From the IMG/VR virus record IMGVR_UViG_3300046694_000573, positions 1 to 23,311 of that record: DNA of 23,311 nucleotides. One strand, 5' to 3'. The DNA is from a virus. The translations under genes were made by a program, and so were the position numbers. How positions within the stretch are numbered: position 1 is the stretch's first letter; every line of letters begins with the position of its first letter. This document shows positions 2,777-19,541 of this stretch, one piece after another. The notes under the pieces were generated by a model that was given only the letters and a program-made list of their open reading frames with translations, did no database searches and was not told the origin of the DNA.

Positions 2777-3118
2777 ATGAACAAAGCCGACATTCCGCTT
2801 GATCCCACCATCCGTTGGGAATGGATCAAGTACCAGCTGCGTGCCCAAGGCACGTCACTCGCCAAAATCGCCAGAGAGCTTGATGTCACTGGCCCGGCGG
2901 TCAAGAACGCGAAGCGCATTGCCTACCCACGCGTGGAGCGCGCCATTGCCAAGGCCCTGAGCCTGAAGCCGGTGCAACTGTGGCCGGAGCGTTGGAACAG
3001 CAACGACGACACTCCCAACCGTATTCGCGTACAGCGAGCAGAAAACAACGCAACTTATAGCCAAGAGAATAACCCAGGTTATATCTGCGAACACGCTAAA
3101 ACGGCGGAGGGCGTCTAG
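2777..3118 (+). CDS. ner: Ner/Nlp-family early regulator
   Basis: A 113-residue protein whose first ~75 residues match the Ner/Nlp pattern: a tryptophan-rich start (IRWEWIKYQL), then an HTH (SLAKIARELDVTGPAVKNAK), then VERAIAKALSL and a WPERW motif. Mu Ner is about 75 residues, so this carries a tail of roughly 40 residues (from about 74) rich in Asn, Asp and Glu with no recognised domain. In Mu, Ner damps the early and repressor promoters after induction. The gene is first in the rightward early operon, with AAAGGA about 10 bases before the ATG. Family assignment is firm; action on the nearby operators is inferred. Confidence 0.87.
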   Translation: MNKADIPLDPTIRWEWIKYQLRAQGTSLAKIARELDVTGPAVKNAKRIAYPRVERAIAKALSLKPVQLWPERWNSNDDTPNRIRVQRAENNATYSQENNPGYICEHAKTAEGV

Positions 3119-3120
3119 AC

Positions 3121-3231
3121 ATGCGTCATACCCAGCCCGTCGCCCTCGTGGTTGCAATAAAGCCAGATATGGCTATGTCATATAATGCCATCGTTGTTTC
3201 GCCGCGCCCGCGGGGTGAGCAGCATGCGTAA
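3121..3231 (+). CDS. Possible 36-aa small ORF between ner and A
   Basis: ATG at 3121 follows GGAGGG by a normal spacing and opens a 36-codon frame. It begins MRHTQPVALVV and ends at TAA 3229-3231, overlapping the transposase start by 8 bases. It resembles nothing I recognise. It could serve only to couple translation into the transposase gene. The same DNA contains promoter-like sequence, so the frame may be fortuitous. Confidence 0.22.
   Translation: MRHTQPVALVVAIKPDMAMSYNAIVVSPRPRGEQHA
3152..3186 (+). promoter_or_regulatory. Candidate second promoter/regulator box before transposase A
   Basis: ATGGCTATGTCAT at 3169-3181 repeats 12 of 13 bases of the box at 2697-2709 in the early promoter. 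TTGCAA (3152-3157) lies 16 bp before TATGTC (3174-3179). A perfect TATAAT lies at 3181-3186. Either could be a promoter giving extra transposase expression, or the box could be a Ner site. Evidence is sequence only. Confidence 0.35.
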
Positions 3232-5248
3232 TTGGTACACGGCCCAGGAACTGGCCGGCCTGCCAGGGCTGCCAGGTACCGAGCGGGCAATTCAATTGCG
3301 CGCCAAGCGCGAGCAGTGGCAAGGCCAACAGCGGCTCGGCAGCAAAGCCATGGAGTACGCCTTTGCGGTACTGCCATCCGCTACCCAGGCGGCGTTGCTA
3401 CAGGCGGCAGTGAAAGCCGAGCCGGCGGAAGCGAACGCGGTGGTCGCCGCTGAGCGGAGCGCGGCATGCCTTACCGACGACCAGCGCTCGGTGATGACCG
3501 CACGCCTGGCCTTCATTCGTGACATCGAACGCATGAGCGCCACCGTCAGCCAGCAACGGGCGATTCTCAGCCTGGTGCAGTTGGCCAAGGACGGACAGTT
3601 GAGTGCTTACCTCAGCGAGCGGGTAGTCCGTGCGAATGATCGCAAGACGGCGGATCGCACCCTGTCGGAACGCACCCTGAAACGTTGGCTCTCGGCCTAC
3701 CAGCACGGCGGCGAAGTCAGCCTGGCGCCACTGCGCCGGCAACAAGACATGGGCGTGCCCGACTGGGCGCCGGTGTTTCTGCGTTGCTACCAGCGGCCGA
3801 GCAAACCCAGTGTGGTGGCGGCTTACAGCGAGTTCGCGGTGAAGTGCCCCGGCGAGCGCCCAAGCATTCATGTGGTGCGCCGCTTTCTCGACAAGTTGAG
3901 CCCTGAGGTGCGCGAGACCGGTCGCCGCAGCCCGCAAGAGTTGAAGGCCCTGCAGCCGTTCAAGCGGCGCAGCACCCAGAGCCTGCGCCCCTGCGATGTG
4001 TTCACTGCCGACGGGCACAAGTTCGACGCCGAGGTGCTCAACCCGCGCACCGGCAACCCCTATCGGCCGGAAACCACCACGGTGCTCGATGTGCACACCC
4101 GCAAGGTGCTGGGCATCAGCATCGGCGAGGCGGAATCGACCATTGGCGTGATCGATGCGCTGCGTGATGCGGTGACCCGTGGCGGTATGTTCGCGATTTT
4201 TTATGTGGATAACGGTTCCGGTTTTGCCAACGCCACGGTGCGCGAAGTGGTCGACCGCCTCGGCGGCACCATGAGCCATGCGCTGCCCTACAACAGCCAG
4301 GCGCGCGGCTTGATCGAGCGTGCGCACCAGAGCATCTGGGTTAATGCGGCGAAAAAACTGACCAGCTACATCGGCGCCGACATGGACAAACACGCCGGCA
4401 GCAAGGTGCACCGCATCAGCCGCAAACAGCTGCGCGAAACCGGCAGCACACGCCTCATTCCAACCTTTGCCGCGTTCATGGCCGGGGTCGAGTTCGAGGT
4501 GCAGGCCTACAACAGCAAGCCGCACCGCGGCCTGGGCAAAATCCGCGATCCGTTGACCGGCAGCCTGCGCCATATGAGCCCCGACGAAGCCTGGGAAAAG
4601 GCCTGCGCCGAGGGTTGGGCACCGCTACAGGCGTCCGCCGCCGTGGTGCAGGACCTGATGCGCCCGCAGGTGCAGCGCCAGACCGTGCGTGGCGAAGTGA
4701 CCTGGGCCAATCAGCGCTATTTCCTCGCGGCCCTGCGCGACTTCCATGGCGAAGAAATCAACCTGTCCTACGACGTCCGCGATGCCTCGCGGGTCTGGGT
4801 TCGCACCCTGCAGGGTGAGTTCCTCGGCGAGGCGTTGCTGGACGGTAACGCCAGCGACTACATGCCGAAAAGCCTGCTCGAGCAAGCCTATGAAAAGCGC
4901 GAGCAGGGGCAGATGAAACGCGCCATCGACAAGTTGGAAACCCTCACCGGCAAACGGGTGCAGATGCTCGCCAGCCCCACCGCGCCCAGCGCCACCCTTG
5001 AGCCGCTGCAACTGCTCGACGCCCAGCGTTATGCCCAACGCCTGGACGCTCAAGCGGCGGCGAGTTTCCAGGTGCCCAACGACTCGATGGCGCGTTATCG
5101 CCTGTGGCAGCAGCTCGACAAACGCCAGGCCAGCGCCCAGGCGCTCAGCGACGCCGAAGCACGCTGGCACAGCCATTACCCGAGCACCCCGGATTTCGCC
5201 TCCGTTCAACGTATCTACGACTTCGCGGCCGCGCAGGCCAGCGCATGA
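3224..5248 (+). CDS. A: MuA-type DDE transposase
   Basis: A 674-residue transposase close in length to MuA (663). The N-terminus (MRNWYTAQELAGLPGLPGTE) parallels MuA MELWVSPKECANLPGLPKT, so I chose ATG 3224, preceded by GGTGAG, over the in-frame ATG at 3185. The catalytic DDE triad appears as Asp263 (TADGHKF), Asp329 (FYVDNGSGFAN) and Glu365 (ARGLIERAHQS). Upstream are end- and enhancer-binding domains; the C-terminal ~100 residues would contact the B ATPase. It should bind the six end sites and catalyse strand transfer. No frameshift or internal stop is seen, so the protein looks functional. It ends just upstream of the B gene, inside the same operon. Confidence 0.95.
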   Translation: MRNWYTAQELAGLPGLPGTERAIQLRAKREQWQGQQRLGSKAMEYAFAVLPSATQAALLQAAVKAEPAEANAVVAAERSAACLTDDQRSVMTARLAFIRDIERMSATVSQQRAILSLVQLAKDGQLSAYLSERVVRANDRKTADRTLSERTLKRWLSAYQHGGEVSLAPLRRQQDMGVPDWAPVFLRCYQRPSKPSVVAAYSEFAVKCPGERPSIHVVRRFLDKLSPEVRETGRRSPQELKALQPFKRRSTQSLRPCDVFTADGHKFDAEVLNPRTGNPYRPETTTVLDVHTRKVLGISIGEAESTIGVIDALRDAVTRGGMFAIFYVDNGSGFANATVREVVDRLGGTMSHALPYNSQARGLIERAHQSIWVNAAKKLTSYIGADMDKHAGSKVHRISRKQLRETGSTRLIPTFAAFMAGVEFEVQAYNSKPHRGLGKIRDPLTGSLRHMSPDEAWEKACAEGWAPLQASAAVVQDLMRPQVQRQTVRGEVTWANQRYFLAALRDFHGEEINLSYDVRDASRVWVRTLQGEFLGEALLDGNASDYMPKSLLEQAYEKREQGQMKRAIDKLETLTGKRVQMLASPTAPSATLEPLQLLDAQRYAQRLDAQAAASFQVPNDSMARYRLWQQLDKRQASAQALSDAEARWHSHYPSTPDFASVQRIYDFAAAQASA

Positions 5249-5265
5249 CCCTGGGAGTAAGCCCT

Positions 5266-5991
5266 ATGAGTGTTTCGAAAATCATCCCATTGACCAACGT
5301 CGGCCTGTTGGCCACCGCCATCGAACGCGCCATGCAGCGCCCTGAGGGTTTGCCGGGCCTGGTGGTGGCCTATGGGCCGAGTGGCCTGGGCAAGAGTGTC
5401 GCCGCCGGCTGGGCGGCCAATATGCACCGCGCCTATTACGTCGAATGCCGCGACACCTGGAGCAAAAAAGCCTTCCTGTTGGCGATCCTGCGGGAGATGG
5501 CCATCAGCCCGGCGCGCACCTTGAGCGAGATGGTCGACCAGATCGCCGAGCAGCTCAGCCGCAGCAACCGGCCGATCCTGGTCGACGATGTGCAGTACCT
5601 GTTGGACAAGGCCGCCGCCAACGTCCTCACCGATATCTACAACGCCAGCCAGGGCACCATCGTGCTGATCGGCGAGGAGCGGGTGCCCCATAGCCTGGCC
5701 AAGCTGGAGCGCCTGCATAACCGCGTGCTCGAGTGGGTGCCGGTGCAGGCCGCCACCCTCGACGACCTGCGCAGCCTGGCCGACGCCAGCTACCCGAGCC
5801 TGCTGATTGCCGACGACCTGCTCGATGACCTGCGCAAGAAAGTACGCGGCTGCCTGCGCCGGGTGTCGGTCAACCTCTACCGGGTGTTCAGCGAGGCGCA
5901 GGCGATTGGCTGGGAGCGGGTTGACCTCAACCAGTGGGGCAACCGCGGCTGGTTCACCGGCGACGCACCGGCGCGGAGGGCGTGCGCATGA
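5266..5991 (+). CDS. B: MuB-type AAA+ ATPase, transposition target selection
   Basis: A 241-residue P-loop ATPase with Walker A GPSGLGKS at 37-44 and Walker B ILVDD at 103-107, followed by an arginine-rich C-terminal helical region. In Mu, B binds DNA in an ATP-dependent manner, delivers target DNA to the transpososome and gives target immunity. MuB is about 312 residues; this protein starts nearly at the ATPase core, so it lacks most of the MuB N-terminal HTH domain, as in other shorter Pseudomonas phage relatives. The start at 5266 follows GGGAG; the longer upstream frame (from 5104) lies inside gene A and is rejected. It overlaps the next gene by ATGA. Confidence 0.92.
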   Translation: MSVSKIIPLTNVGLLATAIERAMQRPEGLPGLVVAYGPSGLGKSVAAGWAANMHRAYYVECRDTWSKKAFLLAILREMAISPARTLSEMVDQIAEQLSRSNRPILVDDVQYLLDKAAANVLTDIYNASQGTIVLIGEERVPHSLAKLERLHNRVLEWVPVQAATLDDLRSLADASYPSLLIADDLLDDLRKKVRGCLRRVSVNLYRVFSEAQAIGWERVDLNQWGNRGWFTGDAPARRACA

Positions 5992-8466: not shown

Positions 8467-8679
8467 GTGGCGAAAATCACCATCACGTTAGAGGATCAGC
8501 GCCAGGGTGTTACATCCTCCCTGGACCTGCAGCAGGCCAGCCCGCGCGAAGCCGCCGGCCTGGTTCCCAGCCGGGCACTGAGCATGGGCCAGGCGCTGCT
8601 CGACATGGTCGCCATGCAGCAGGCCATCAATGCCGTGCCACGTTGCAGCCGCCTGCCGGTCTCAACCACGTTGCACTGA
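8467..8679 (+). CDS. Hypothetical small early protein (GTG start)
   Basis: A 70-residue frame starting with GTG at 8467, just after a perfect AGGAGG overlapping the previous stop. The protein begins (M)AKITITLEDQ and includes SMGQALLDMVAMQ. No function is recognised. The ribosome-binding site decides the start over longer upstream readings of the same frame, which overlap the previous gene. Confidence 0.55.
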   Translation: MAKITITLEDQRQGVTSSLDLQQASPREAAGLVPSRALSMGQALLDMVAMQQAINAVPRCSRLPVSTTLH

Positions 8680-8736
8680 GCGAAACCATCCCGGCCTGGC
8701 CGGCGATGGTCTACCGGGCGTGGTGGCCCGGTACTG

Positions 8737-8877
8737 ATGAGCAGCCAACACCGACCCCTGACGGCCGAGCAGCGCCCACATAGCCGCGGCGTGCGCAGTT
8801 CCGCCCGGGCACGAGCCACATGGGAGAATCACCGAATGGGAGAACCACCGCATGAGCGAGCCTTTATTCAGCAATGA
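8737..8877 (+). CDS. Possible 46-aa ORF overlapping the start of mor
   Basis: The 8680-8851 interval has no clear gene. The best small frame starts at ATG 8737 (MSSQHRPLTAEQRPHSRG), is rich in Arg, and ends at TGA 8875-8877, 26 bases inside mor. It has no clear ribosome-binding site. It may be fortuitous or a coupling leader for mor. No similarity is recognised. Confidence 0.18.
   Translation: MSSQHRPLTAEQRPHSRGVRSSARARATWENHRMGEPPHERAFIQQ
8820..8851 (+). repeat. 16-bp tandem duplication in the mor leader
   Basis: ATGGGAGAATCACCGA (8820-8835) is followed directly by ATGGGAGAACCACCGC (8836-8851), differing at two positions. The second copy ends at the mor ATG. Each copy carries a GGGAGAA ribosome-binding-site-like core, so the duplication places two potential binding sites before mor. 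Confidence 0.8.
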
Positions 8878-9289
8878 CAGCAACAAACTGGACCCCGCCA
8901 AGGTGCTGGCGCATATGACCGACCCGGCCGTGCTGACGCGCTGGGAAGGCACCCTGAAAGAGATGGTCGAAATCGCTGAAGCCAAGCTGCGCAGCGAGCT
9001 CGGCGATGTAGCTAACGTGCCGAGCCTGGCCCGTCATGTGGTGTTTGCTCTGTGCGACACCCTGGGCGGCAGCGTGGTTTATCTGCCGCGAGGGGATACT
9101 CTCAAACGTGCCATGCGCGACGCCGCGATCTTTCGCGACTGGCGCGACGGCGGCAAACAACCGGCCGACCTGGTACGCAAATACCGTCTGGCCAACCAGA
9201 CCATCTACGACATCATCGCCCGGCAACGGGCACTGCACCGCAAGCGCGAGCCGGACCTGTTCGGCACCGGCAATAACAGCGTGCATTAA
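8852..9289 (+). CDS. mor: Mor/C-family middle-late transcription activator
   Basis: A 145-residue protein of the Mor/C family. The central dimerisation region includes VYLPRGDTLKRAMRDAAIFR, a strongly conserved family motif. The C-terminal HTH includes LVRKYRLANQTIYDIIARQR. Mu Mor is 129 residues. In Mu, Mor activates the middle promoter for C, and C then activates late promoters; here no second family member is present, so this protein probably drives lysis and tail transcription directly. It is the last gene before a strong terminator, as Mor ends the early operon in Mu. The start is preceded by GGGAGAA. Confidence 0.93.
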   Translation: MSEPLFSNDSNKLDPAKVLAHMTDPAVLTRWEGTLKEMVEIAEAKLRSELGDVANVPSLARHVVFALCDTLGGSVVYLPRGDTLKRAMRDAAIFRDWRDGGKQPADLVRKYRLANQTIYDIIARQRALHRKREPDLFGTGNNSVH

Positions 9290-9320
9290 GCGCTCGTCTG
9301 CCCCTACAAATCCCCCTTTG

Positions 9321-9348
9321 AAAAGCCTCGCTGGCGCGCGGCTTTTTT
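9321..9348 (+). terminator. Intrinsic terminator after mor
   Basis: AAAAGCC pairs with GGCTTTT, extended by CGC/GCG across one mismatch with a short loop, followed by a T-run at 9343-9348. It ends the early operon 32 bases after the mor stop and separates it from the late genes. Confidence 0.85.
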
Positions 9349-9459
9349 CTTAAGTCCAGCTGACACTCCAGGCCAGTCGCGCTCGCGGCACCCTGGGGGC
9401 ATGAATACTCCCGCCTTCGGCCGCACGGGCCACCGACTTCTCGCCAGGGGCGTTACGCA
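9349..9459 (+). promoter_or_regulatory. Likely Mor-dependent late promoter region
   Basis: The interval between the terminator and the endolysin must hold the late promoter. There is an inverted repeat CCAGG (9368-9372) with CCTGG (9392-9396), and a weak -10-like AATACT at 9404-9409. No good -35 is present, as expected for an activator-dependent promoter. The exact Mor site is not proven. Confidence 0.35.
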
Positions 9460-9963
9460 ATGAGCGTAAAAGCCCGGCTCATGGCTGCCGCCATCACCTT
9501 GGCCACGCCCACCGTTCTGTACTTCGAGGGGCGCAGCCTGTTCGCCTACCTGGACCCGGTAGGCATCCCGACCATCTGCGATGGCTGGACCCAGGGCGTG
9601 CAGCTTGGCGATGTAGCCACCGCCACGCAGTGCGATGCCCATACCCGCGAGGGCCTGGAACAGGCTGCAGCGATCTTGCTGCGTTGGGTGCCGGGCGAGG
9701 TGCTGGCGGGCCTGAGTGCGCACAGCAGCGCGGCGTTTCTATCGTTTATCTACAACGTCGGCCCCGGCCAGCCCGGGGTCAAAGACGGCTTTGTCTGGCT
9801 GAAGAATGGTCGCCATTCCACCTTGTTGTTGCACCTGCAGGCCGGGCGCGTGGCGCAGGCGTGTAGCCAGCTTTCGGCATGGACCCGTGCCGGTGGCAAG
9901 GTGCTGAGAGGGCTCGAACGGCGCCGTGCGGCAGAGCGCGAACTGTGCGAGGCCGAGCTATGA
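9460..9963 (+). CDS. SAR-type endolysin, GH24 lysozyme
   Basis: A 167-residue muramidase that cuts the peptidoglycan glycan backbone. The Glu-8aa-Asp-5aa-Thr catalytic triad of phage lysozymes is exact: Glu23 (FEGRS), Asp32 (LDPVG), Thr38 (TICDG). Residues about 8-21 (MAAAITLATPTVLY) form a weakly hydrophobic, Ala/Thr-rich N-terminal segment typical of signal-arrest-release endolysins, which go through Sec and refold after release from the membrane. For a tailocin this releases particles by lysing the producer. First gene after the late promoter; it overlaps the spanin gene by ATGA. Confidence 0.93.
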   Translation: MSVKARLMAAAITLATPTVLYFEGRSLFAYLDPVGIPTICDGWTQGVQLGDVATATQCDAHTREGLEQAAAILLRWVPGEVLAGLSAHSSAAFLSFIYNVGPGQPGVKDGFVWLKNGRHSTLLLHLQAGRVAQACSQLSAWTRAGGKVLRGLERRRAAERELCEAEL

Positions 9964-10577
9964 ACCTGTCCGCCTGGAAAGCCCTGTGGCCGTTGCTGCT
10001 GGCCGCCGTGCTGGCGGCGCTGGTGTGGCGCTACGGCGCGGTGCAATGGCAGAGCGGTTATGCCCAGGCCAAGGCCGAAGGCGACAGTGCGTTGGCCGGG
10101 TTGCGCCTGCAGCACAGCCGCGAAGAGACCGAGCGCGCCGAGGCCGCCATGGTGCAAAACAGTCAGGCCACCCAGACCCTGCAGCGCGAGCAACAACGCG
10201 CCAACGACCTGGCCGCCGAACTGGCCAGCCAACAACGCCACAACCGCCAAACCACTGACCGCCTTAGCGGGGAGATTGCCCGTGTCAACGACCTGTATCG
10301 CGAGGCGCTGGATGCGCCGGCCAAGCCTTTGCCTGCTTGTGTGTTCACTGTTGGTTGGGTGCACATCTATGACCAAGCCAGCGGCGCCGCCCTGCCTGAC
10401 CCCGCAGATTCCAGCGGAACTGCTGCGCCGCCCAACGCCGCCAGTGCCGCTGCGCAACTGGACTCAGGGCTCAGCCAGCGTGAGCTTCTGGCCCACCATA
10501 TCCAGTACGCCGAACAATGCCGTAACACCACCCGGCAGCTGGAGCTGCTGATCGACCAGGTAACCGGTAAGCCATGA
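9960..10577 (+). CDS. Rz-like inner-membrane spanin (i-spanin)
   Basis: A 205-residue type II membrane protein: short N-terminus, one transmembrane segment (about 7-26, ALWPLLLAAVLAALVWRYGA), then a long coiled-coil periplasmic domain rich in Glu, Gln and Ala (about 35-115). This is the architecture of Rz, the inner-membrane partner in disrupting the outer membrane. It shares 240 bases with an embedded Rz1-like lipoprotein gene in another frame, as expected for Rz/Rz1. The C-terminal region beyond the overlap is unusually long and charged. Linked to the neighbours by ATGA overlaps on both sides. Confidence 0.87.
   Translation: MNLSAWKALWPLLLAAVLAALVWRYGAVQWQSGYAQAKAEGDSALAGLRLQHSREETERAEAAMVQNSQATQTLQREQQRANDLAAELASQQRHNRQTTDRLSGEIARVNDLYREALDAPAKPLPACVFTVGWVHIYDQASGAALPDPADSSGTAAPPNAASAAAQLDSGLSQRELLAHHIQYAEQCRNTTRQLELLIDQVTGKP
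10312..10551 (+). CDS. Rz1-like outer-membrane spanin lipoprotein, embedded in Rz
   Basis: A 79-residue frame entirely inside the Rz-like gene. It begins MRRPSLCLLVCSLLVGCTSM, with a lipobox ending at Cys17, and the mature part is Pro-rich (PAAPPCLTPQIP and RRPTPPVPL), as for Rz1 o-spanins. Rz1 is lipid-anchored in the outer membrane and pairs with Rz across the periplasm. Embedded Rz1 genes are typical and easily missed in annotation. Start at ATG 10312, with GAGGCGCTGG upstream. Confidence 0.85.
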   Translation: MRRPSLCLLVCSLLVGCTSMTKPAAPPCLTPQIPAELLRRPTPPVPLRNWTQGSASVSFWPTISSTPNNAVTPPGSWSC

Positions 10578-10957
10578 GTTTTTCAATCGGAGATCTGTTC
10601 ACCTGGGCCATCAGCCTGCTGGGAATCTTCACCACCCTGGTGTTCGGCCTGGTCAAGCTGCTGCTCTGGCAGTTCGAAAAACGCCTGGACGAGCGTTTCA
10701 GCGCTCAGGAAACCGCGCGCAAAGAAGCCAGCCAGGTGTGGGAGGGCAACTTCGAGAAAGTCTTGAGCCGTCAGGACAAAGACGCCGAAGCCCTGCGCCG
10801 CCTGGAGAATGAATTTCTGCGCTTCAAGGGTGAGCTGCCCCTGGAATACGTACGCCGCGAAGACTGGGTGCGCGGCCAGTCGGTGATCGAGGCCAAGCTC
10901 GATGGCCTTGCCCTCAAATTCGAAAATCTGCTGCTCAAACGCACCCGCCAAGACTGA
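10574..10957 (+). CDS. Mu gp25-like membrane protein (DUF2730)
   Basis: A 127-residue protein with one N-terminal membrane segment (about 5-30, containing LFTWAISLLGIFTTLVFGLVK) followed by a charged coiled-coil-like cytoplasmic or periplasmic domain. It resembles the DUF2730 family that includes Mu gp25, found between the lysis genes and the packaging genes. Its function is unknown; because no other holin candidate is present, a role in lysis timing is possible but speculative. It is the last gene before the head module would begin in Mu. Confidence 0.75.
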   Translation: MSFSIGDLFTWAISLLGIFTTLVFGLVKLLLWQFEKRLDERFSAQETARKEASQVWEGNFEKVLSRQDKDAEALRRLENEFLRFKGELPLEYVRREDWVRGQSVIEAKLDGLALKFENLLLKRTRQD

Positions 10958-11248
10958 CGCGCAACGCGTCGTTTTAACGCCTTCTCGGGCCTACTCGCCC
11001 GGGTTGTATCACCTGCGCCGGCAACCGGCGTTAGACCCCCGTTAGACACGTGCCCCAGCCCCTTGGTGAACCTTGTTCCCTTGGCGAACCTTCCCAGCCC
11101 CCACTCCATTGTTCGCGCCGCCTCTGCCCGCGTCCGGCTTTTATCTGCCTGGCCCTTGCAGCCTTACGCCGCACTGAAACTCCCGGTCGCTCGCCAGCCG
11201 CCAACATGGCGACATGCAACGAACCACCCCCAAGGGAGCCGCACACCC
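10958..11248 (+). promoter_or_regulatory. Gene-poor junction where the Mu head module would be
   Basis: About 290 bp separates the gp25-like gene from gp36, the place Mu carries gp26-gp35. I see no terminase, portal or capsid remnant. It holds CGGGC/GCCCG (10986-10990/10997-11001) and CGCCGG/CCGGCG (11016-11021/11025-11030) hairpins without T-runs, CGTTAGAC repeated 11 bp apart (11029 and 11040), and a near-identical 15 bp pair at 11060-11074 and 11078-11092 (CCCTTGGTGAACCTT, one base different). A tail-operon promoter may lie here. A 12-codon leader (11214-11252) overlaps the gp36 start. Confidence 0.55.
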
Positions 11249-11686
11249 ATGAACCTATCGCTACCGACGGCCAGCCAGATGCTCCTGCGTTTTGGTGCGC
11301 GTCGCCTCACCGAGCTGGCGGTGCCGGACACCGAACAAGTGATCGACCCACTGCTGCTGCAAGCGGCTGCGGCCGGTGCACCGCTGGACGAGTGGCTGAG
11401 CTCGGAGATCGCCATCGCCCAACAGGCCCTGGCCCGCATCGCCGATGCCGCCGGCCGGGCGCGCAGTGAAGTGCTGTTTTACCTGCGCTACCGCCAGGCC
11501 GAGCAGGCCGCCCCGGAGTGGGCGCTGGACGATGTGATGGAACTGGCCCGCTACCACCTGGTGGACAGCGCCGGCAAGAAGGGCTCCACCGTGCGGACCC
11601 GTTACCGCGATGTGCTCAAGCGCCTGCAGACCCTGGCTGCCGAAGACCGCGCCACTGCCGCGCCCACCAGCGCAGGTAGCAACTGA
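11249..11686 (+). CDS. Mu gp36-like protein (DUF1320), neck/tail-completion
   Basis: A 145-residue protein of the DUF1320 family: LPTASQMLLRFGARRLTELA parallels the Mu gp36 opening, with ARYHLVDSAGKKGSTVRTRY in the C-terminal half. In Mu this gene (J) lies between capsid and tail genes, near the connector. Retained here without any capsid, it may help complete the tail end that would meet the head. Start ATG 11249, with AGGGAG upstream, was chosen over an in-frame upstream start (11063) lying in the noncoding junction. It ends in a TGATG overlap with the next gene. Confidence 0.85.
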   Translation: MNLSLPTASQMLLRFGARRLTELAVPDTEQVIDPLLLQAAAAGAPLDEWLSSEIAIAQQALARIADAAGRARSEVLFYLRYRQAEQAAPEWALDDVMELARYHLVDSAGKKGSTVRTRYRDVLKRLQTLAAEDRATAAPTSAGSN

Positions 11687-12249
11687 TGCTGGGCGAGCTG
11701 GAAGACCTAATCCAGGCCCGCCTGGGGCTGCTACGCGGCTCGCTCAAGCGCCTGACCATCGGCAGCTACGGCGGTGAACTGCGTGACCGCGACCTGTTGC
11801 CGGCGCTGCTCTCGCGCTGCCCGGCGGTGCTGCTGGAAACCCCGCGAGCGGTGTTCCACAAACGCGCCAAGGGCCGCTACAGCATTGCCATCAGCTTTCG
11901 CCTGGTGATCGCCAGCCGCCACCTGCGTGGTGAGCGCGAAGGTCGTCGTGGCAACGCCGAAGAGATCGGCAGCTATGCGCTGTGGAGCGCCTGCATGGCG
12001 CAACTGGTGGACTGGCAACCCTGGCCCGAGCGGGCGCGGATCGAGCCCACCGAGCTGCTCAACCTGGTCAATGGCCAGGCGCAAGCAGACAGCCTGTCGG
12101 TGCTCGGCCAGTCGTTTGTGATCGAACTGGATTGGCAGAAACCGCTGGAAGAACTACCGGACCTGTTGGGCATTGACCTGCAGTTCCACGTACCCGCAGG
12201 CAACCCGTCTGCGGTGGCCAACGACTCCATCGAATTGGGGACTAGCTGA
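11686..12249 (+). CDS. Mu gp37-like protein (DUF1834), tail terminator candidate
   Basis: A 187-residue protein of the DUF1834 (gp37) family found before the sheath gene in Mu-like phages. The opening MLGELEDLIQARLGLLRGSL and the RDRDLLPALLSRCPAVLLET-like region (about 30-48) fit that family. In related contractile tails this protein caps the tail at the head-proximal end, so it is expected to be kept by a tail-only particle. It shares one base with gp36 and with the next gene. Function is inferred from family and order. Confidence 0.85.
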   Translation: MLGELEDLIQARLGLLRGSLKRLTIGSYGGELRDRDLLPALLSRCPAVLLETPRAVFHKRAKGRYSIAISFRLVIASRHLRGEREGRRGNAEEIGSYALWSACMAQLVDWQPWPERARIEPTELLNLVNGQAQADSLSVLGQSFVIELDWQKPLEELPDLLGIDLQFHVPAGNPSAVANDSIELGTS

Positions 12250-12452
12250 TGCGCGTTATCGCTGCACCTGATGCTCGCGTACCACAGGAAGGCACGCCGC
12301 GAGCCTTTATTGAACCTGCTCCGGCCAAGCCTGTGGACGTGCCGGACACCTCGTACTACCGCCGTCGGATTGCCGCGAAGGAGCTCCTGCTCGTTCCCGT
12401 CAGGCCTCGTCGCAGTGCCAAAGAAAACGCTAAAGGAGATACCCACGCATGA
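12249..12452 (+). CDS. Mu gp38-like small tail protein (DUF2635)
   Basis: A 67-residue basic protein matching DUF2635, the small protein always placed before the sheath in Mu-like phages. PDARVPQEG and the VPDTSYYRRRIAAKELL region are characteristic. Its function is not established. It overlaps the sheath gene start by ATGA, and its last codons include the sheath ribosome-binding site AAAGGAG. Confidence 0.85.
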   Translation: MRVIAAPDARVPQEGTPRAFIEPAPAKPVDVPDTSYYRRRIAAKELLLVPVRPRRSAKENAKGDTHA

Positions 12453-13546
12453 CCATTGCCTTTGACACCATCCCGGCGTCGATCCGTAAACCCGGCGCCT
12501 ATTTTGAATTCAACACCAGCCTGGCAGTTCGTACCCTGCCAACCAACGCCCAGAGCATCTGCTTCATCGTGCCCCTGAGCGAAGGCGCCACCGCGGCTGC
12601 CAACCAACCGGCGCAGGTGTACAGCGCTGCCGAAGCCAAGGCCCAGTTCGGCGTGGTCGCCGAAGAAATGGTCGCCGCGGCCATCAAGGCCTACCGCTAT
12701 GCCGCGATCTCCTGTGTCGGCGTAGTGGTTGAAGGCTCCACCGAGCCGGATATCAGCGCTGCCCTGGATGCCACCGCACAAGGCGAGTACAGCATCCTGG
12801 TACCGGCCTGGTACAGCCAGGCGGCCCTGACGGCGCTGCGTACCCACATCAACACCTACACCGATTCCATCGAGCAGCAAGGCATCCTCGGTGTCGGCGC
12901 GCTGACAACCACGTTGTCCGCCGCCACCACCCTGGCCAACTCCCTGAACGCTGGCCCGATCACCCTGGCACTGCTGCCGGGTACCGCCTCCAGCCCACGT
13001 GAAGTGGCCGCCGCCTACGCCGCCCTGATCGCCTCGGAAGAAGACCCGGCGCGTCCGCTGAACACCCTGGTGCTCACCGGTATCAAGGTGCCGGCGATTG
13101 CCAACCGCCTCGGCCGTGTCGAGCAGGAAACCTGCCTGGCCAATGGCGTGACGCCGCTGGAAGTGGGCGCTGGTGATGTGGTGCAGATCGTTCGTGCGGT
13201 GAGCACTTACACCAAATCTGCGGCCGGTGAGGACGACGTTTCCCTGCTCGATCTGACCACCCTGCGCACCCTCTACTACGTGCGCAAAGCCTGCCGTGCC
13301 CGCGTTCGCCTGCGCTTTCCGCGCGCCAAGCTGTCGAGCAAAACCCCGGCAGCGGTGCGCAGCGAACTGCTCGATGTGCTGAAGAAATGTGAAGAGCTGG
13401 AGATCCTCGAAGCGGTCGACGCCAACGCCGATGGCCTGATTGTCGAGCGCTCTCTGCAAGACGTTAACCGGCTCAACGGAGCCATCCCTGCTGATGTTGT
13501 GAACGGCCTGCACGTGTTTGCCGGTCGCATCGATCTGCTGCTGTAA
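12449..13546 (+). CDS. Contractile tail sheath protein (gpL-like, short form)
   Basis: A 365-residue sheath subunit. The opening IAFDTIPASIRKPGAYFEFN corresponds to the Mu gpL N-terminus, and the C-terminal end VNGLHVFAGRIDLLL fits the conserved sheath terminus that links subunits. Mu gpL is 495 residues, so about 130 residues are missing overall, most simply from a middle surface domain. The sheath forms the contracting outer cylinder that drives the tube through the target envelope. It is preceded by AAAGGAG and followed by tube in the usual order. No frameshift was seen, so the short length looks native. Confidence 0.9.
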   Translation: MTIAFDTIPASIRKPGAYFEFNTSLAVRTLPTNAQSICFIVPLSEGATAAANQPAQVYSAAEAKAQFGVVAEEMVAAAIKAYRYAAISCVGVVVEGSTEPDISAALDATAQGEYSILVPAWYSQAALTALRTHINTYTDSIEQQGILGVGALTTTLSAATTLANSLNAGPITLALLPGTASSPREVAAAYAALIASEEDPARPLNTLVLTGIKVPAIANRLGRVEQETCLANGVTPLEVGAGDVVQIVRAVSTYTKSAAGEDDVSLLDLTTLRTLYYVRKACRARVRLRFPRAKLSSKTPAAVRSELLDVLKKCEELEILEAVDANADGLIVERSLQDVNRLNGAIPADVVNGLHVFAGRIDLLL

Positions 13547-13556
13547 GGAGAAAATT

Positions 13557-13928
13557 ATGTCGGATAACTATGTTGGGCAGATCGTCCTCTCGGTCAACGG
13601 GGCGGACTATGAAATCAAAGAGCTGAACCACACCCTGAAAACCGGTCGCATCGTGGTCAAGACCATGAACCGCAAGGGTCGCCCGCTGGGTACTGCTGAG
13701 GGCGTGGAGGACTACTCGCTGACCGTCAGTGTCGCCATTCCTAAAGCGGGTGAACCGGACTGGCGCGCGATGCTGGACGCCAAGATCACCATCGAGCCGC
13801 TCGACGGCGGTGGTCAGCGTGAGACCTGGACCGGCGTATCGCTGGTGCAGATGGGCAGCAAGTACGTCCTGGAGGGCGAGGCGACTCGCAGCCTGGATCT
13901 GACCGCCCTGAACTACTACACGGAGTAA
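13557..13928 (+). CDS. Tail tube protein (gpM-like)
   Basis: A 123-residue tube protein (Mu gpM is about 118) starting MSDNYVGQIVLSVNGADYEI after TAAGGAG. The ALTVSVAIP-like beta-rich middle and the repeated Val/Ile/Thr alternation fit the tube fold. It polymerises inside the sheath around the tape measure. It lies between sheath and chaperone, in the Mu order. Start chosen by ribosome-binding site over the earlier in-frame start at 13518 inside the sheath gene. Confidence 0.88.
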   Translation: MSDNYVGQIVLSVNGADYEIKELNHTLKTGRIVVKTMNRKGRPLGTAEGVEDYSLTVSVAIPKAGEPDWRAMLDAKITIEPLDGGGQRETWTGVSLVQMGSKYVLEGEATRSLDLTALNYYTE

Positions 13929-13934
13929 GTCGGC

Positions 13935-14300
13935 ATGACGACCCACGAGAAACGCTGGGATGGCCTGACCATCACCCGTGATCTGGCGATAGGCGTTTTC
14001 TACGCGGGTTCTCGTCACAAGACCTTCACCCTGCGCGTACCCGTCGCTGGCGACTTGATTGCCGCCCAGCAAGCGTACCCGCAGGGCCCCATGCAACTGA
14101 TCAGCATCGACGTCTACCGCCAGCAATTGCTGGCCTTGGGCGAGATTCCGACAGAGGCATTGACGGTCGAGCTGTTGCGCGCCGAATTGGCTGAAACCGA
14201 TCTGGCGATCATCGCTCGCGCTGACGAAGACCTGGAAAAAAAGCTCGCGCCGCCGAGCGCGGCATCACCGATTGGCGACGGGTCGAACACGCCCTCGTAA
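13935..14300 (+). CDS. Tail assembly chaperone, unshifted product (gp41-like)
   Basis: A 121-residue protein in the position of Mu gp41, the short form of the tail assembly chaperone pair that helps tape measure and tube assemble. It begins MTTHEKRWDGLTITRDLAIG. Near its end the gene contains A AAA AAG at 14237-14243, in the exact register of a -1 slippery heptamer, allowing a longer fused form. It is soluble, with no enzyme motif. Confidence 0.85.
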   Translation: MTTHEKRWDGLTITRDLAIGVFYAGSRHKTFTLRVPVAGDLIAAQQAYPQGPMQLISIDVYRQQLLALGEIPTEALTVELLRAELAETDLAIIARADEDLEKKLAPPSAASPIGDGSNTPS

Positions 14301-14434: not shown

Positions 14435-16168
14435 ATGAGTTCAGATCCAAGCGTCTCATTGCGCATTCAGACCGAAGCCAGCAAAGAGGGCGCCAAGGCC
14501 TTGGCCGACCAGGCTTACAAGGCCAACGTCGCGGCCAGCAACCTGGCTCAGGCCGGGGTGACCAGCTACCAGATGGCCCGCCAGGCGCTGCGCGATACGT
14601 CCACCCAGGGCGCGAGCCTGTTGCGTCAGGAACTGCAGAGCGCGGGCAGTACCCTACGCGCCGTGAAAGCCCTGGCGGGTGGTGGGCGCGGCGAGCAGCT
14701 GCGCAGCTTCGCCAGCAACGGCCTGCACGACAGCGCTAGCCTGGATCGCCAGCTGATTCGTCTGCAACAGAGCAGCGGTATGAGCAACGGCCAGCGCCAC
14801 GAGTGGCGTGACGAAGGGGCACGGATTGCCCGTGCCTATGGGCTTAATCGTGCGGATGTGGACAGCGGCTTCGGCACCTTGATTGGCGCCGGCCTGAGCT
14901 ACTCCGCCGCGAAAAAAGCCAGCGACGCCTTGGGCCGCACGAGTGCCGTTACCGGTAGCGATTCGGCCACCCTTGGGCAGGCCCTGCTCGGCGGCGCCAG
15001 TGCCTTTAACGTCGACCTTAACCAGGACGGCGCGGCACTCGGTCTGCTGCAGAAAATGACCGTGGCTGGCCGTCTTGGTGGGCCGGGGTTCGAGCAACTA
15101 ACCGAACTGTTCCCACGTATTGGCGCCAGTGCGGCGAGTGCCGGGTTATCGATCGAGCAGACTCTGGCGCTGCTGGGCACTTTGCCCAAAGCGGCGCTGC
15201 AAAGCGCGGAGGTTGGCGCCCTGATCAGTGCTGCCAGACCGGCGAACTTCTCGCCGGCCGCCGGTAGCAGCGTGACCAACTTAGGTGTGCGGGCCGGTCA
15301 GATTGGCAATGCCGCCGCGGTGTTCGGTAACGACCTGAACCAGAACCTGGCCAGCGCCAGCGGTACCTCGGCACGGGTAAAAGCCACTGTGGGGCAGGCG
15401 CTTGATCGTATGGCGCAACCGCTGAACAACAGCCTGGCACAGGCCGGCAGTTACCTGCTCGATGACCTCAACTTGTCCGGCGAGCACCTGTTGGGCACTG
15501 CCGCTGCGGCCGGTATTGGCGCGCATTACGCCGGACGTGGTGCCGGTGCGTTGTTCAACCGTTTTGTGGGGGCGCAGACCCTGCAAAACGTTGCAGTGGG
15601 CAAGGTGCTGCAGGACGCGGCAGGCGTCACCTCGGTGTTTGTCACCAACTGGCCTGTCGGCTCGTTGGGGATACCCGATATCGGGCTGGACACAGGCGGC
15701 GCTGGAGCGGGCAAAAAGCCTGGGCTGGGCCGGCTTAGGGGATTGTTAAAGGGCGGCGGTGTTCGCGGGCTTGTTCTGGCAGAACTGCTGGACAACGCCG
15801 ACGAGCTCTTCACTCCGCTTCCTGGCGATCGCCTTCCACAACCTGATGAAGAGAGTTCGGCCGCTCAGAACGCTGGTGCGGATTCCGCTTGGTTGCACAA
15901 GAACGCCGCGCGTATTCCTCAGGACGGCAGCGGCTTGAATGCCACTGATGGTGCCGCCAGCGAGTCCCAAGCCTGGGCCTCGGGCCTGTCTTCACGACTG
16001 GTCGACGGCGCCCTGGCGATGCCGATTGGCAGTGGTGCGCAGGCGGCCGAAACGCGCCTGGCGGAGCTGCTGAGCAAGCCCCTGGTGATCGAGGTCAGGA
16101 CCGACAGCGACATGATCATGGCGGAAGTTGAACGCCGTACCGAAATGCAGATGAGGCGTGGACAATGA
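14435..16168 (+). CDS. Tail tape measure protein
   Basis: A 577-residue tape measure: long Ala/Gly/Ser/Leu-rich helices, starting MSSDPSVSLRIQTEASKEGA, with a hydrophobic region around 355-385. It sits directly after the chaperone frameshift. In Mu-like tails this protein sets tail length, at about 1.5 angstrom per residue. Near 577 residues this suggests a tail of roughly 85-95 nm, an inference from length only. It is followed by a 4-base overlap with the gp43-like gene. Confidence 0.9.
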   Translation: MSSDPSVSLRIQTEASKEGAKALADQAYKANVAASNLAQAGVTSYQMARQALRDTSTQGASLLRQELQSAGSTLRAVKALAGGGRGEQLRSFASNGLHDSASLDRQLIRLQQSSGMSNGQRHEWRDEGARIARAYGLNRADVDSGFGTLIGAGLSYSAAKKASDALGRTSAVTGSDSATLGQALLGGASAFNVDLNQDGAALGLLQKMTVAGRLGGPGFEQLTELFPRIGASAASAGLSIEQTLALLGTLPKAALQSAEVGALISAARPANFSPAAGSSVTNLGVRAGQIGNAAAVFGNDLNQNLASASGTSARVKATVGQALDRMAQPLNNSLAQAGSYLLDDLNLSGEHLLGTAAAAGIGAHYAGRGAGALFNRFVGAQTLQNVAVGKVLQDAAGVTSVFVTNWPVGSLGIPDIGLDTGGAGAGKKPGLGRLRGLLKGGGVRGLVLAELLDNADELFTPLPGDRLPQPDEESSAAQNAGADSAWLHKNAARIPQDGSGLNATDGAASESQAWASGLSSRLVDGALAMPIGSGAQAAETRLAELLSKPLVIEVRTDSDMIMAEVERRTEMQMRRGQ

Positions 16169-17451
16169 GTTGGGCTGAAACGTTATTCGACGCCTCGTTC
16201 CGGGGTGTACCGCTACAGGTCATCAGCGAGAATCTGGAGGGCACCCGCGCGCTGTCGCAGCATGGCACGCCCTACAAAGACGGCGATGCCGTCGTCGACC
16301 TGGGCCGCGCGGCGCGCAAGTTCGAGCTGAACGTGGTGGTCTATGGCAACAGCTACGAGCGCGAGTTGCGCGAGCTGCTGGAGAGCCTGGATACCCTCGG
16401 CCCGGGCGAGCTGATTCACCCGGTGTACGGCAGCCTCAACGTGGTGGTGCAGGACTGGAAAGTCTTGCACGCGGCCGACCGGCCGAACTACGCAACGGTG
16501 ACCCTGCACGTTGTCGAAGCCAGTGCTGACGCACCGTTTTTCCCAGCCGATGAAACCGGCTGGCAGCATGGCCTGTACGACATGCTGGGGCGGGTCGACT
16601 CGCTGGTGGCGAAGGTTCAGGAGCTGATCAGTGGTGGTTGGGTCGGCTTGCTGGAAACCACCCTCGGCCTGCCGGGCATCGGCTTGCGTTTGCGCCAGCT
16701 GCGCTCGCAGATTCTCGGGGTGGTATCGGGGGTCACCTCGATGGCCAGCAACCCGGCAGGGGCTTTTGACCCGCTGCTTGATCTGCTGCGCACCCCCAGC
16801 GAAATCCGTGCGGCGATCCAGCTCAGCACCCCCAGCAGCCTGCGCGGCTTGCTGGCCCGCAGCGGTTTGCCGACCAGCGTGCCGGGCAGCGCCAGCCTGG
16901 TGGCGGAGGTGGCGCGGGTCGGTGCCGAGCTGTTGAGCAGTGCCCGAGTGGGCAATACCCCGGATGCCAGCCGCCTGCCGAACGCCATGCCGAGTGATCC
17001 GGTCAGCGCCAGCGCCTACGGCCTGCTGGTGCTGCTGACCACCGAGCTGGCGCTGTCCCACGCCCAGGCCGCCACGGCGTTGCTCGACGACGAGACGCAA
17101 ACCCAGACCCTCAGCCCGAATGAAATCGAAGGCCTGGCCAACCTGGTGCGCTCGCTGATCCAGGCCGCCATCCTGCTGCACCGCCGCCTGTATGACGTGG
17201 AAGTGGCGCTGCCGACCATCGAGGCGCTGCGCGGCATCGCCGCCCTGGTGCAGACCCGTGCCCAGCAAGTGATTCTGCTCAGCCCGCCGCTGCTCGAACG
17301 CACCCTGGAGTCCCCGGCCAGCCTGCGCCTGTTGGCCCACCGCTGGTACCAGGACCACAGCCGCGCCAACGAGCTGCTGCGCCTGAACCCCACCCTCAAA
17401 ACGCCGCACAACCTTGCGGCCGGCCAAGTGGTGCGTGCCTATGCCCAGTGA
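16165..17451 (+). CDS. Mu gp43-like protein (DNA circularisation N-terminal family)
   Basis: A 428-residue protein with the DNA_circ_N family opening (SWAETLFDASFRGVPLQVIS, then an RGAARKFELNVVVYG-like stretch at about 50-63). In Mu it is gpN (gp43), once proposed to help circularise injected DNA, now regarded as a tail/baseplate-associated protein; in a headless particle only the structural role is relevant. The C-terminal half is long helical, Leu/Ala rich, ending with a LysM-like PTLKTPHNLAAGQVVRAYAQ stretch. It shares 11 bases with the hub gene start (17441). Confidence 0.88.
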   Translation: MSWAETLFDASFRGVPLQVISENLEGTRALSQHGTPYKDGDAVVDLGRAARKFELNVVVYGNSYERELRELLESLDTLGPGELIHPVYGSLNVVVQDWKVLHAADRPNYATVTLHVVEASADAPFFPADETGWQHGLYDMLGRVDSLVAKVQELISGGWVGLLETTLGLPGIGLRLRQLRSQILGVVSGVTSMASNPAGAFDPLLDLLRTPSEIRAAIQLSTPSSLRGLLARSGLPTSVPGSASLVAEVARVGAELLSSARVGNTPDASRLPNAMPSDPVSASAYGLLVLLTTELALSHAQAATALLDDETQTQTLSPNEIEGLANLVRSLIQAAILLHRRLYDVEVALPTIEALRGIAALVQTRAQQVILLSPPLLERTLESPASLRLLAHRWYQDHSRANELLRLNPTLKTPHNLAAGQVVRAYAQ

Positions 17452-18541
17452 ATCGATAAGCCTGGCCATTGGCGGTGACGCCCATGCGCAGTGGGACAGC
17501 TGGTCGGTGGAGTCGGACTTGCGCACGCCAGCTGATGGCTTCGAGCTGGCGCTGCATACTCAGGACACGGCGCGTTTGTCAGAGCTGCTGGTGGCGGGTT
17601 CGGCCTGCACACTGAGCCTGGGCGCGGATCGGGTATTGACGGGCTGGATTGATGAGGTCATCCACGAGGTGTCGCGAGCAGGCGTGACCATCAAGGTTAC
17701 CGGTCGTGATGCGGCGGCGATCCTAGTGGATAGCACGCCACCCTTTATCTGCATGCACGATGCCGGGTTGCTGGAAGTGGTGGAGCAGATCGCCCGGCCT
17801 TTGGGAATAACCCGGGTGGACATTCATAACGTCGATCCCAAGAACTCCAAACGTGTGCAACTGGCGCCCACGCAGAAAGCATGGGATGCGATCAAGGCGG
17901 TAGCAGAGACGAACAACCTGTGGCCATGGATGGAGGCCGATGGCCGATTGGTGATTGGTGTTCCGGACTATTCCAGCGCCCCTGCGGACACCTTGCTGTT
18001 GCGCCTGGATGGTGTCGGCAACAACGTCAGCAACCTGTCTGTACGCCGCTCCTATGCCGACCGCTACAGCCATGTTTTTGTGTATGGCCAACATGGTCAG
18101 TACACCAGCGAAAACTATGACTTTGCTGGTAACCGGGTGGCGGCGGCGTTTCAGGACAAGACCATGGTCCGCTATCGACCGACAACGGTCGAGGCGCCCG
18201 TGCAAAACCAGCAGCATGCCGATCAGGTAGCCCGAGACCAGATTGCCAACAGTCGTCTGGAAGGGCTGGAAATACAGGCTGTCGTGCAAGGTCATCGGAC
18301 TGCCGCGGGCGATCTCTGGACACCAGGCCAACGGGTGATTGTGCGCAGCGAACCGCACGACCTGGACGCGACGTTTTTCCTGATGTCGCGCAAGCTCAGC
18401 CTGTCCCGCAGCAGCGGGCCAACCACGCTGTTGCGCCTGGTTGAGGACAAGGTGTGGAAATCCCACAGCTCGCTGGCCGATGCCTACAAGGGCAAGGCCA
18501 CCTCTGTTGAAACCTTTGTCGAAGTAAAGGCGGCGAAATGA
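17441..18541 (+). CDS. Baseplate hub protein (Mu gp44/gpP-like)
   Basis: A 366-residue hub protein, close to Mu gp44 (379). It begins MPSESISLAIGGDAHAQWDS, with beta-rich gpD-like domains: DRVLTGWIDEVIHEV (about 61-75) and KVTGRDAAAILVDSTPP (about 85-101). It forms the central ring holding spike and tube. Start at ATG 17441 (the upstream in-frame ATG at 17414 lies inside the preceding gene and gives nine extra residues). It ends with ATGA into the spike gene. Confidence 0.88.
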   Translation: MPSESISLAIGGDAHAQWDSWSVESDLRTPADGFELALHTQDTARLSELLVAGSACTLSLGADRVLTGWIDEVIHEVSRAGVTIKVTGRDAAAILVDSTPPFICMHDAGLLEVVEQIARPLGITRVDIHNVDPKNSKRVQLAPTQKAWDAIKAVAETNNLWPWMEADGRLVIGVPDYSSAPADTLLLRLDGVGNNVSNLSVRRSYADRYSHVFVYGQHGQYTSENYDFAGNRVAAAFQDKTMVRYRPTTVEAPVQNQQHADQVARDQIANSRLEGLEIQAVVQGHRTAAGDLWTPGQRVIVRSEPHDLDATFFLMSRKLSLSRSSGPTTLLRLVEDKVWKSHSSLADAYKGKATSVETFVEVKAAK

Positions 18542-19098
18542 AGACCTTTGCGCAAATGATGCGGCAACAGTCCGCCGCCGAACGCTCCAACTTCCGCCAG
18601 GCGTTCCGCGCTGTCGCTGCTCGCAATACCCAGGGCAAATTGATTGGCGTGGAGATGGAAGGCCTGGCCGGCGAAGCGGTGTCTGGCGAGTTGTTCCAGC
18701 ACTACGGCTTCACCTCCGCGCCGCTGGCCGGGGCCGAATTCATTGCCGTGCCGGTGGGCGGTAATAGCCGCCACACCGTGGTGGTCGCCAGTGAGGACGG
18801 GCGTTACCGCATCACCCTGCAGGACGGCGAGGTGGCCTTGTACAGCGACGAAGGCGACCGCGTGCACCTCAAGCGTGGGCGGGTGGTCGAGGTGGTGACC
18901 CAGACCCTGCTGGTCAGCGCCGGGCAGAAGGTGCGCTTCGACACGCCACTGCTCGAGGTCAGCGGCCAGGTGCAGGTGAGCGGCGATATCAGCAGTGCCG
19001 CCGAGGTTCGCGACCACACCCGCAGCCTGCAGGCCGACCGCGATATCTACAACGGCCATACCCATGGCAGCGGCCCGGCGCCCACGCAAAAGCAGTGA
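18538..19098 (+). CDS. Baseplate spike protein (Mu gp45/gpV-like)
   Basis: A 186-residue spike, similar in length to Mu gp45 (197). N-terminal OB-like region, then beta-helix type sequence with VALYSDEGDRVHLKRGRVVE and a tip containing His174-Thr-His176 near the C-terminus. The HxH pair is the iron-coordinating apex seen in such spikes. The trimer pierces the target outer membrane. A 92-base gap with no ORF or clear promoter follows before gp46. Confidence 0.9.
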   Translation: MKTFAQMMRQQSAAERSNFRQAFRAVAARNTQGKLIGVEMEGLAGEAVSGELFQHYGFTSAPLAGAEFIAVPVGGNSRHTVVVASEDGRYRITLQDGEVALYSDEGDRVHLKRGRVVEVVTQTLLVSAGQKVRFDTPLLEVSGQVQVSGDISSAAEVRDHTRSLQADRDIYNGHTHGSGPAPTQKQ

Positions 19099-19190
19099 GG
19101 CCGGTTTGACCCTACGCGCGCGTGGCAAGGCCTTGAGCCTTAAAACGCGCTGAAACTCCCCCCTGGTAACGCGCGAGGCAACCTACAGCC

Positions 19191-19541
19191 ATGGACGCAG
19201 GAATTGAAACGACGACAGGCGATTTGTCCGGTGAGCGCATCCGCTCGCTGGCCAACGCCGTGTATCTCCGACTGAAGACCCCGCTGGGCAGCTACTGGGC
19301 CGATGTGTCGCTGGGTTCGCGCCTGCATGAACTGGCGCGGGCCAAGGACCTGGCGCGGATCGGCAAGCTGGCCACGCAATACGCTGAGCAGGCCTTGCAG
19401 CCATTGCTCGATGACCGACGCGCGACGTCGGTGCAAGTGACCGCCCAGCAGCCCCATGACGGTTGGCTGCTGCTGGTGGTCGAGGTGGTGGATGCCGGTG
19501 GCAGCCCCCAGGTGTTCAAACATCTTGTGCAGGTGATCTGA
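19191..19541 (+). CDS. Baseplate wedge protein (Mu gp46, gp25-like/GPW family)
   Basis: A 116-residue protein of the gpW/T4 gp25 family: TPLGSYWADVSLGSRLHELA then a helical region and VQVTAQQPHDGWLLLVVEVV. It initiates sheath assembly at the baseplate. In the Mu order it lies between spike and gp47. Start ATG 19191, after GAGGC. It overlaps gp47 by one base (TGATG). Confidence 0.85.
   Translation: MDAGIETTTGDLSGERIRSLANAVYLRLKTPLGSYWADVSLGSRLHELARAKDLARIGKLATQYAEQALQPLLDDRRATSVQVTAQQPHDGWLLLVVEVVDAGGSPQVFKHLVQVI

Follow-up and report, generated by a model that had tools for sequence, protein, structure and literature searches.

Tailocins are usually regarded as domesticated, immobile remnants. 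Among the closest described systems, Mu-derived R-type syringacins are known in Pseudomonas syringae (Hockett 2015, as cited in PMC12090994), and swapping of the fibre and its chaperone by local recombination is known in P. syringae tailocins (PMC6331570). We analysed a 23,311-bp virus record (hereafter the window) which carries a Mu-like element. Judged from its genes, this element is likely a Mu-derived, R-type-tailocin-like locus that has kept its transposition kit, and particles and killing are predicted, whereas transposition is a possibility. Of the genes looked for in an R-type tailocin, those of the contractile tail, baseplate and fibre are intact, and head genes are absent; the element also has lysis genes and an S24 repressor, for which a response to DNA damage would be predicted.

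Gene content and host site of the element

The element and its genes are as follows:

~1698 to 23024, plus strand: whole headless Mu-like element of ~21.3 kb (left end like that of the Pseudomonas sp. 8Z prophage; empty site in genome G122)
1872 to 2534, minus strand: repressor with an S24 (LexA/CI-type self-cleaving) peptidase domain (PF00717, E 9e-17; PHROG transcriptional repressor)
2777 to 3118, plus strand: Ner-like HTH regulator (PF13693, 3e-14)
3185 to 5248, plus strand: MuA transposase (PF09299, PF02316, rve)
5248 to 5991, plus strand: MuB-like ATPase (PF13401; Walker A GPSGLGKS)
8852 to 9289, plus strand: Mor/C-type late activator (PF08765, 1e-21; PHROG 532)
9460 to 9963, plus strand: endolysin (PHROG 7, 6e-38)
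9960 to 10577, plus strand: Rz-like spanin (PHROG 1403, 2e-48)
10574 to 10957, plus strand: gp25-like gene, the last before the missing head module (PHROG 462; full-length 8Z match)
11249 to 11686, plus strand: gp36 (PF07030)
11686 to 12249, plus strand: gp37 (PF08873)
12449 to 13546, plus strand: tail sheath (PHROG 165, 4e-112)
13554 to 13928, plus strand: tail tube (PHROG 185)
13935 to 14300, plus strand: tail assembly chaperone (PHROG 508)
14435 to 16168, plus strand: tape measure, 577 aa (PHROG 973)
16165 to 21183, plus strand: baseplate genes gp43-gp48 (PHROG)
21183 to 22325, plus strand: tail fibre, replaced between strains (PHROG, strain comparison)
22333 to 22887, plus strand: tail fibre assembly chaperone, replaced between strains (PHROG, strain comparison)

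The gene order in the first half is S24-type repressor, Ner-like gene, MuA, MuB, DUF3164, Mor/C, endolysin, Rz and gp25, and after 291 bp it continues with gp36, gp37, gp38, sheath, tube, chaperone, tape measure, baseplate, fibre and fibre chaperone. The tail, baseplate, fibre and lysis genes are all open, and the DDE motifs of MuA are intact (ADGHKF, YVDNGSGF and RGLIERAH at residues 275, 340 and 374). The tape measure has 577 aa in the copies of both strains that carry the element, versus 739-826 aa in 26 full phages. A hyper-conserved stretch of DNA upstream of Mor is a Type II hammerhead ribozyme (window 8678-8750, plus strand; Rfam RF02276, 72 bits), which is also found in the early or middle region of Pseudomonas sp. 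GV071, the 8Z prophage (twice), phage YPCBV-1 and L344, a partial record described below. The left end of the element, TGTGGGGAAGTGGGAGGTTTGGCAC, resembles that of the complete 8Z prophage, TGTGAGCTAGTGGGAGTATTGGCAC. The element has TG..CA ends, the right one being placed from its position and a weak inverted match, and this inverted counterpart alone lies within shuffled noise; a search for a 5-bp target duplication at the element found none.

A second copy, in GV071, matches the window at 98-99% identity, also across the junction between gp25 and gp36, apart from a few swapped segments. In either strain the element sits at the same place, flanked on one side by a histidine kinase gene and on the other by a gene for a small secreted protein near lldP/lldD-like genes, and no transposition was seen; the fixed locus with variable fibres is known from two strains only. 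Genome G122, in which ~110 bp separate the host gene from the right flank, provides the empty site, and a search with the right-flank DNA gave mostly chance-level matches beyond GV071 and G122. Between the two strains the pooled pN/pS is 0.066 (102 synonymous versus 20 nonsynonymous changes) and no stop codons occur in the unswapped genes, a pattern by which the element is under purifying selection. The middle of the gp44 hub (17720-18508) was replaced between the strains, with 61% amino acid identity there as against 98-99% in its neighbours, so that recombination has acted here as well as at the fibre. The flanking histidine kinase gene (9-1697) has a dS of 0.12 versus 0.024 for the element, a roughly fivefold higher silent divergence, which hints that the two strains came to share the element recently. 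A tyrosine-recombinase-like gene (L064:11005-11991, minus strand) lies a few kb to the left of the GV071 element, which suggests another mobile element nearby.

The junction between gp25 and gp36

The initial annotation had noted that gp36 follows the gp25-like gene after 291 bp, without the packaging and capsid genes in between, and both points hold: the gp25-like gene stops at 10957, gp36 (PF07030, 3e-7) starts at 11249, and neither Pfam/PHROG scans nor tblastn revealed a head gene. In the scans, none of the window proteins came out as a capsid, portal or terminase protein; when ten proteins of the 8Z head module were compared with the window by tblastn, the best E value was 0.13. The gp25-gp36 spacing in full relatives is ~8-10.5 kb, as found for the measurable loci among the 45 obtained by a gp37 scan, the sole exception being the GV071 copy, which is in both collections. 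In 8Z the head module extends from gp26, overlapping the end of gp25, to gp35, overlapping the start of gp36. The junction contains the following features:

10958 to 11248, plus strand: junction, retained gp31(G)-gp32(I) intergenic region (blastn, alignment, gp25-stop-to-repeat length)
11029 to 11047, plus strand: CGTTAGAC-CCC-CGTTAGAC, 11-bp phased, candidate strong gyrase site (motif conservation, mid-genome position)
11060 to 11092, plus strand: lineage-specific 15-bp direct repeat pair (11060, 11078), absent from the rest of the window
11155 to 11213, plus strand: leader at the P_I position, conserved as CCTTA..CC..CTGAAACTCCC..GCCGCC.ACATGGCGAC (blastn, alignment, shuffles)
11214 to 11252, plus strand: start codon of the lost gene I, opening a 12-codon ORF (alignment)

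By its sequence, the junction is the intergenic region between gp31 (G) and gp32 (I) of the parent phage, a region situated inside the head module of full Mu-like phages. When the head regions of full phages were searched by blastn, two stretches of the junction matched away from the edges where it would be expected, namely just 5' of gene I, ~2.45 kb before gp36, in eight phages and with E down to 3e-6, and the reversed junction used as control gave a best value of 0.38 and no match 5' of gene I. The alignment with the phages continues through the start codon of gene I, and the distance from the upstream stop codon to the repeat is 73 bp in the window (from gp25) versus typically 74 bp in the phages (from gp31). 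The leader part reached a similarity of 18.7, compared with a shuffle maximum of 13.6; for the first 71 bp of the junction, similarity alone was not significant (50/200 shuffles). Taken together, the blastn placement, the repeat, the alignment and the gap length identify the junction as the G-I region and put the head loss on both sides of it, gp26-gp31 having gone from one side and gp32-gp35 from the other. The start codon of gene I now opens a 12-codon ORF whose TGA overlaps the ATG of gp36 (ATGA), with the Shine-Dalgarno sequence AAGGGAG at 11232. The junction gave no match in a phage database search and was found in GV071 alone among 398 genomes of the genus; since it is common to GV071 (three single-base differences), it is not an assembly error. 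A search for a sigma-70-like promoter in 8600-11700 found none. Remnants of capsid proteins inside the junction were also considered, and none is claimed, the tblastx signals being equal to those of the reversed control.

The initial annotation had proposed that the module was excised cleanly at one junction, with the repeats as possible recombination scars, and the repeats that it named are present (CGTTAGAC at 11029 and 11040, 11 bp apart, and the 15-bp pair, with one mismatch, at 11060 and 11078). Such a single-step excision would explain the intact stop of gp25 and start of gp36, the precision of the event and the presence of a local 15-bp repeat, but the 8-bp repeats and the leader occur in full, head-bearing phages, so the island stood between head genes before the loss. 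The CGTTAGAC repeats therefore predate the deletion and are not its scars, what remains as the junction is a conserved, non-coding piece of the interior of the head module rather than a one-step scar, and we give excision in a single step hardly any credence. Alignment to full Mu-like phages, the check set beforehand, thus bore out the loss of the head genes and replaced the one excision point by losses on both sides. The 15-bp pair is unusual in itself (one in 150 dinucleotide shuffles has such a pair) and has no conservation in the phage alignment.

The GTTAGA repeat as a candidate gyrase site

To our knowledge, Mu's own gyrase site has had few working equivalents. Within the window sequence the 8-mer pair is unremarkable, with 3 repeated 8-mers versus a shuffle mean of 2.1. 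In full prophages, GTTAGA-N5-GTTAGA was present in 37 of 40 stretches (several of them duplicate records) versus 0.09 expected, and in each of the other three a version that deviates by one or two mismatches lies in the corresponding region. Among these 37 stretches, the repeat lies 177-181 bp before gene I in 21 and 144 or 212 bp in four; in 12 it is further upstream with an extra gene between, as if the interval between repeat and gene I were a cargo insertion site in full Mu-like prophages. The extra genes found there are varied (L006, L008, L009, L011, L015, L019, L022, L104, L106 and L138). A motif scan of IMG/VR gave at least 120 loci, and 76 among the matches listed have recognisable Mu-like genes. 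Among these listed matches, 73 of the 76 placeable have the motif inside the head module, either downstream of F/G or 5' of I, and it is on the strand of the genes in 52/76 and on the opposite strand in 24/76, at similar distances. On average it lies at 0.528 of the contig (sd 0.026, 16 phages), and in the window element at 0.44. Each element has one copy, none being found before lys in the window, where the flank of the repeat departs from the phage consensus (GATT to GACA). Conservation across phages thus rules out chance repeats, although the 8-mer pair alone is ordinary, and the repeat is a functional-looking site.

In Mu, replicative transposition is efficient only with the strong gyrase site (SGS) in a central position (PMC10052514, PMC6463007). 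According to the Mu annotation, gyrase cuts 176 bp before gene I and P_I (17977-18043) lies between the cut and the gene, so that the Mu SGS resembles the GTTAGA repeat in its place: mid-genome, in the G-I interval and ~176 bp upstream of gene I. Because its mid-genome place and its occurrence in both orientations fit a gyrase site, the GTTAGA repeat is probably the SGS of these Mu-like phages. The Mu SGS differs in having another sequence motif: it does not contain GTTAGA, and its right arm has a loose match with three mismatches that alone is not significant. Since Mu lacks the motif, we infer the gyrase role of the repeat, which is that of a candidate.

The alternative, suggested in part by the initial annotation, which had proposed sites for an activator of the tail operon, is that the repeat binds the late activator or another protein driving P_I and not gyrase. 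The near-constant distance 5' of gene I in 21 of the 37 stretches would suit such a role, as would the fact that Mu P_I is C-activated (PMC4461284), and a repeat upstream of inserted genes would still drive them. On the other hand, the motif is on the opposite strand in about a third of the IMG/VR occurrences listed, at similar distances, it occurs just once in each element and is absent ahead of lys in the window, P_I of Mu is nearer to the gene, and the repeat is always near mid-genome. The idea of a functional-looking site rather than chance repeats was sound, and a plain late-activator site, weakened by the dual orientation and the mid-genome position, is retained as a rival that we consider rather unlikely. 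With the gyrase reading preferred, the 11-bp-phased motif offers a concrete sequence for probing the central gyrase site in Mu-like phages.

Origin of the element and comparison with known systems

A second headless element was found in the partial record L344 (IMGVR_UViG_2880206526_000002), which carries MuA, MuB, Mor, lysis genes, gp25 (72%) and the GTTAGA repeat, followed by ATGAAAAC, an I-like ATG ~178 bp after the repeat, and then gp37 and tail genes. Head genes between the repeat and the tail are absent, the head proteins of YPCBV-1 gave no match, and gp36 is missing too. The sheath of L344 (539 aa) has its best phage match in Chromohalobacter phage YPCBV-1, the baseplate genes are present, and the tape measure has 546 aa versus 656 aa in YPCBV-1. 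As the tail lineage differs from that of the window, the head loss was separate, and on gene content L344 is an independent parallel with the plan of the window element.

The preferred explanation, a tailocin-like locus derived from Mu, would work as follows. Head genes were lost on both sides of a central non-coding region, which stays as the 291-bp junction. DNA damage would lead to cleavage of the repressor, and the early genes would then give the Mor/C activator and late transcription from a lysis promoter and the retained P_I-like region, producing contractile tails and cell lysis, with the tails killing related bacteria. Less certainly, the repeat may serve as an SGS helping to pair the ends for replicative transposition, and induction may still lead the element to increase its own copy number. 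A stronger version, which we advance only tentatively and hold to be possible rather than likely, is that of a self-amplifying and perhaps mobile tailocin with MuA, MuB, ends and a central gyrase site, which would have arisen at least twice. If so, induction would multiply the tail genes by transposition before lysis, the locus would move as a transposon, and GTTAGA-N5-GTTAGA would be the sequence that defines the central gyrase site throughout a large group of Mu-like phages.

The element could also be a decaying Mu-like prophage that lost its head genes by chance, with the rest uneroded and no particle function. Prophages do decay by deletion, neither the homology at the right end nor the target duplication is clean, and just two near-identical copies of the window element are known. 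Against this, the unswapped genes have no stops and changed mostly at synonymous sites (102 versus 20), the swap of fibre and chaperone is typical of tailocins (compare PMC6331570), a regulatory island was retained although all head genes went, and a second lineage, L344, has the same plan, so that we consider decay improbable. A satellite or tail donor receiving heads from another phage in trans is a still weaker contender, and a very improbable one. In its favour, the element retains the late activator, ends and transposition genes, and GV071 has another prophage with a capsid-like gene; the match of that capsid gene to gpT, however, is weak and partial and falls in a protease-capsid fusion, and the shortened tape measure argues for a new tail and not for donation. 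Head genes supplied from elsewhere were the case which the initial annotation had named against itself, and in GV071, the genome searched for them, the Mu-type portal profile (PF06074) had no match and PF10124, of the gpT family, one weak match in that other prophage; the portal model matches 8Z at 2e-102 and nothing in a control set. The reading of a tailocin-like locus with retained transposition genes thus stays the likely one.

Several described loci share part of this plan. The window sheath is 74-85% identical to the sheaths of full Mu-like prophages, and 14 of 398 genus genomes match it at 1e-40, those other than GV071 having head genes where checked (the G355 stretch includes gene I and the major head gene, and not gp25). 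Headless tail clusters are common in the genus (PMC8319346), but the sheaths of the mutS/cinA-type and other Mu-gp45-containing Pseudomonas loci sampled with a sheath match, whose type was assigned by position, are 26-32% identical to that of the window. BceTMilo, a P2-like element, likewise has head genes missing beside intact tail and lysis genes, and differs in belonging to the P2/KL3 lineage and in that transposition genes were not reported (PMC5411513). Of the full phages whose early genes can be compared, the nearest is the prophage of Pseudomonas sp. 8Z, which shares gene order, ends, Mor, MuA (55%) and the lysis and tail genes, but possesses a head module of ~10.5 kb, a total of 38,415 bp, a 5-bp target duplication (CAGAG) and a longer tape measure. 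Its F-like head protein (L099:6437-7714, minus strand) has a C-terminal PBECR2 nuclease-like domain.

A partial literature search found no description of a tailocin locus keeping MuA/MuB and a gyrase site. The window element and the unrelated L344 have both kept transposition genes and a mid-genome control site and dropped every recognised head gene, a contrast that tells dispensable phage functions from those retained en route to a tailocin, and that opens the idea of a transposing tailocin to test. Compared by description, the R-type syringacins are similar to the element in being contractile tail loci from a Mu-like phage, with heads lost and fibre and chaperone diversified; their locus lies between trp genes and that of the window at the histidine kinase/lld region, and, unlike them, the window element has MuA, MuB and the ends.
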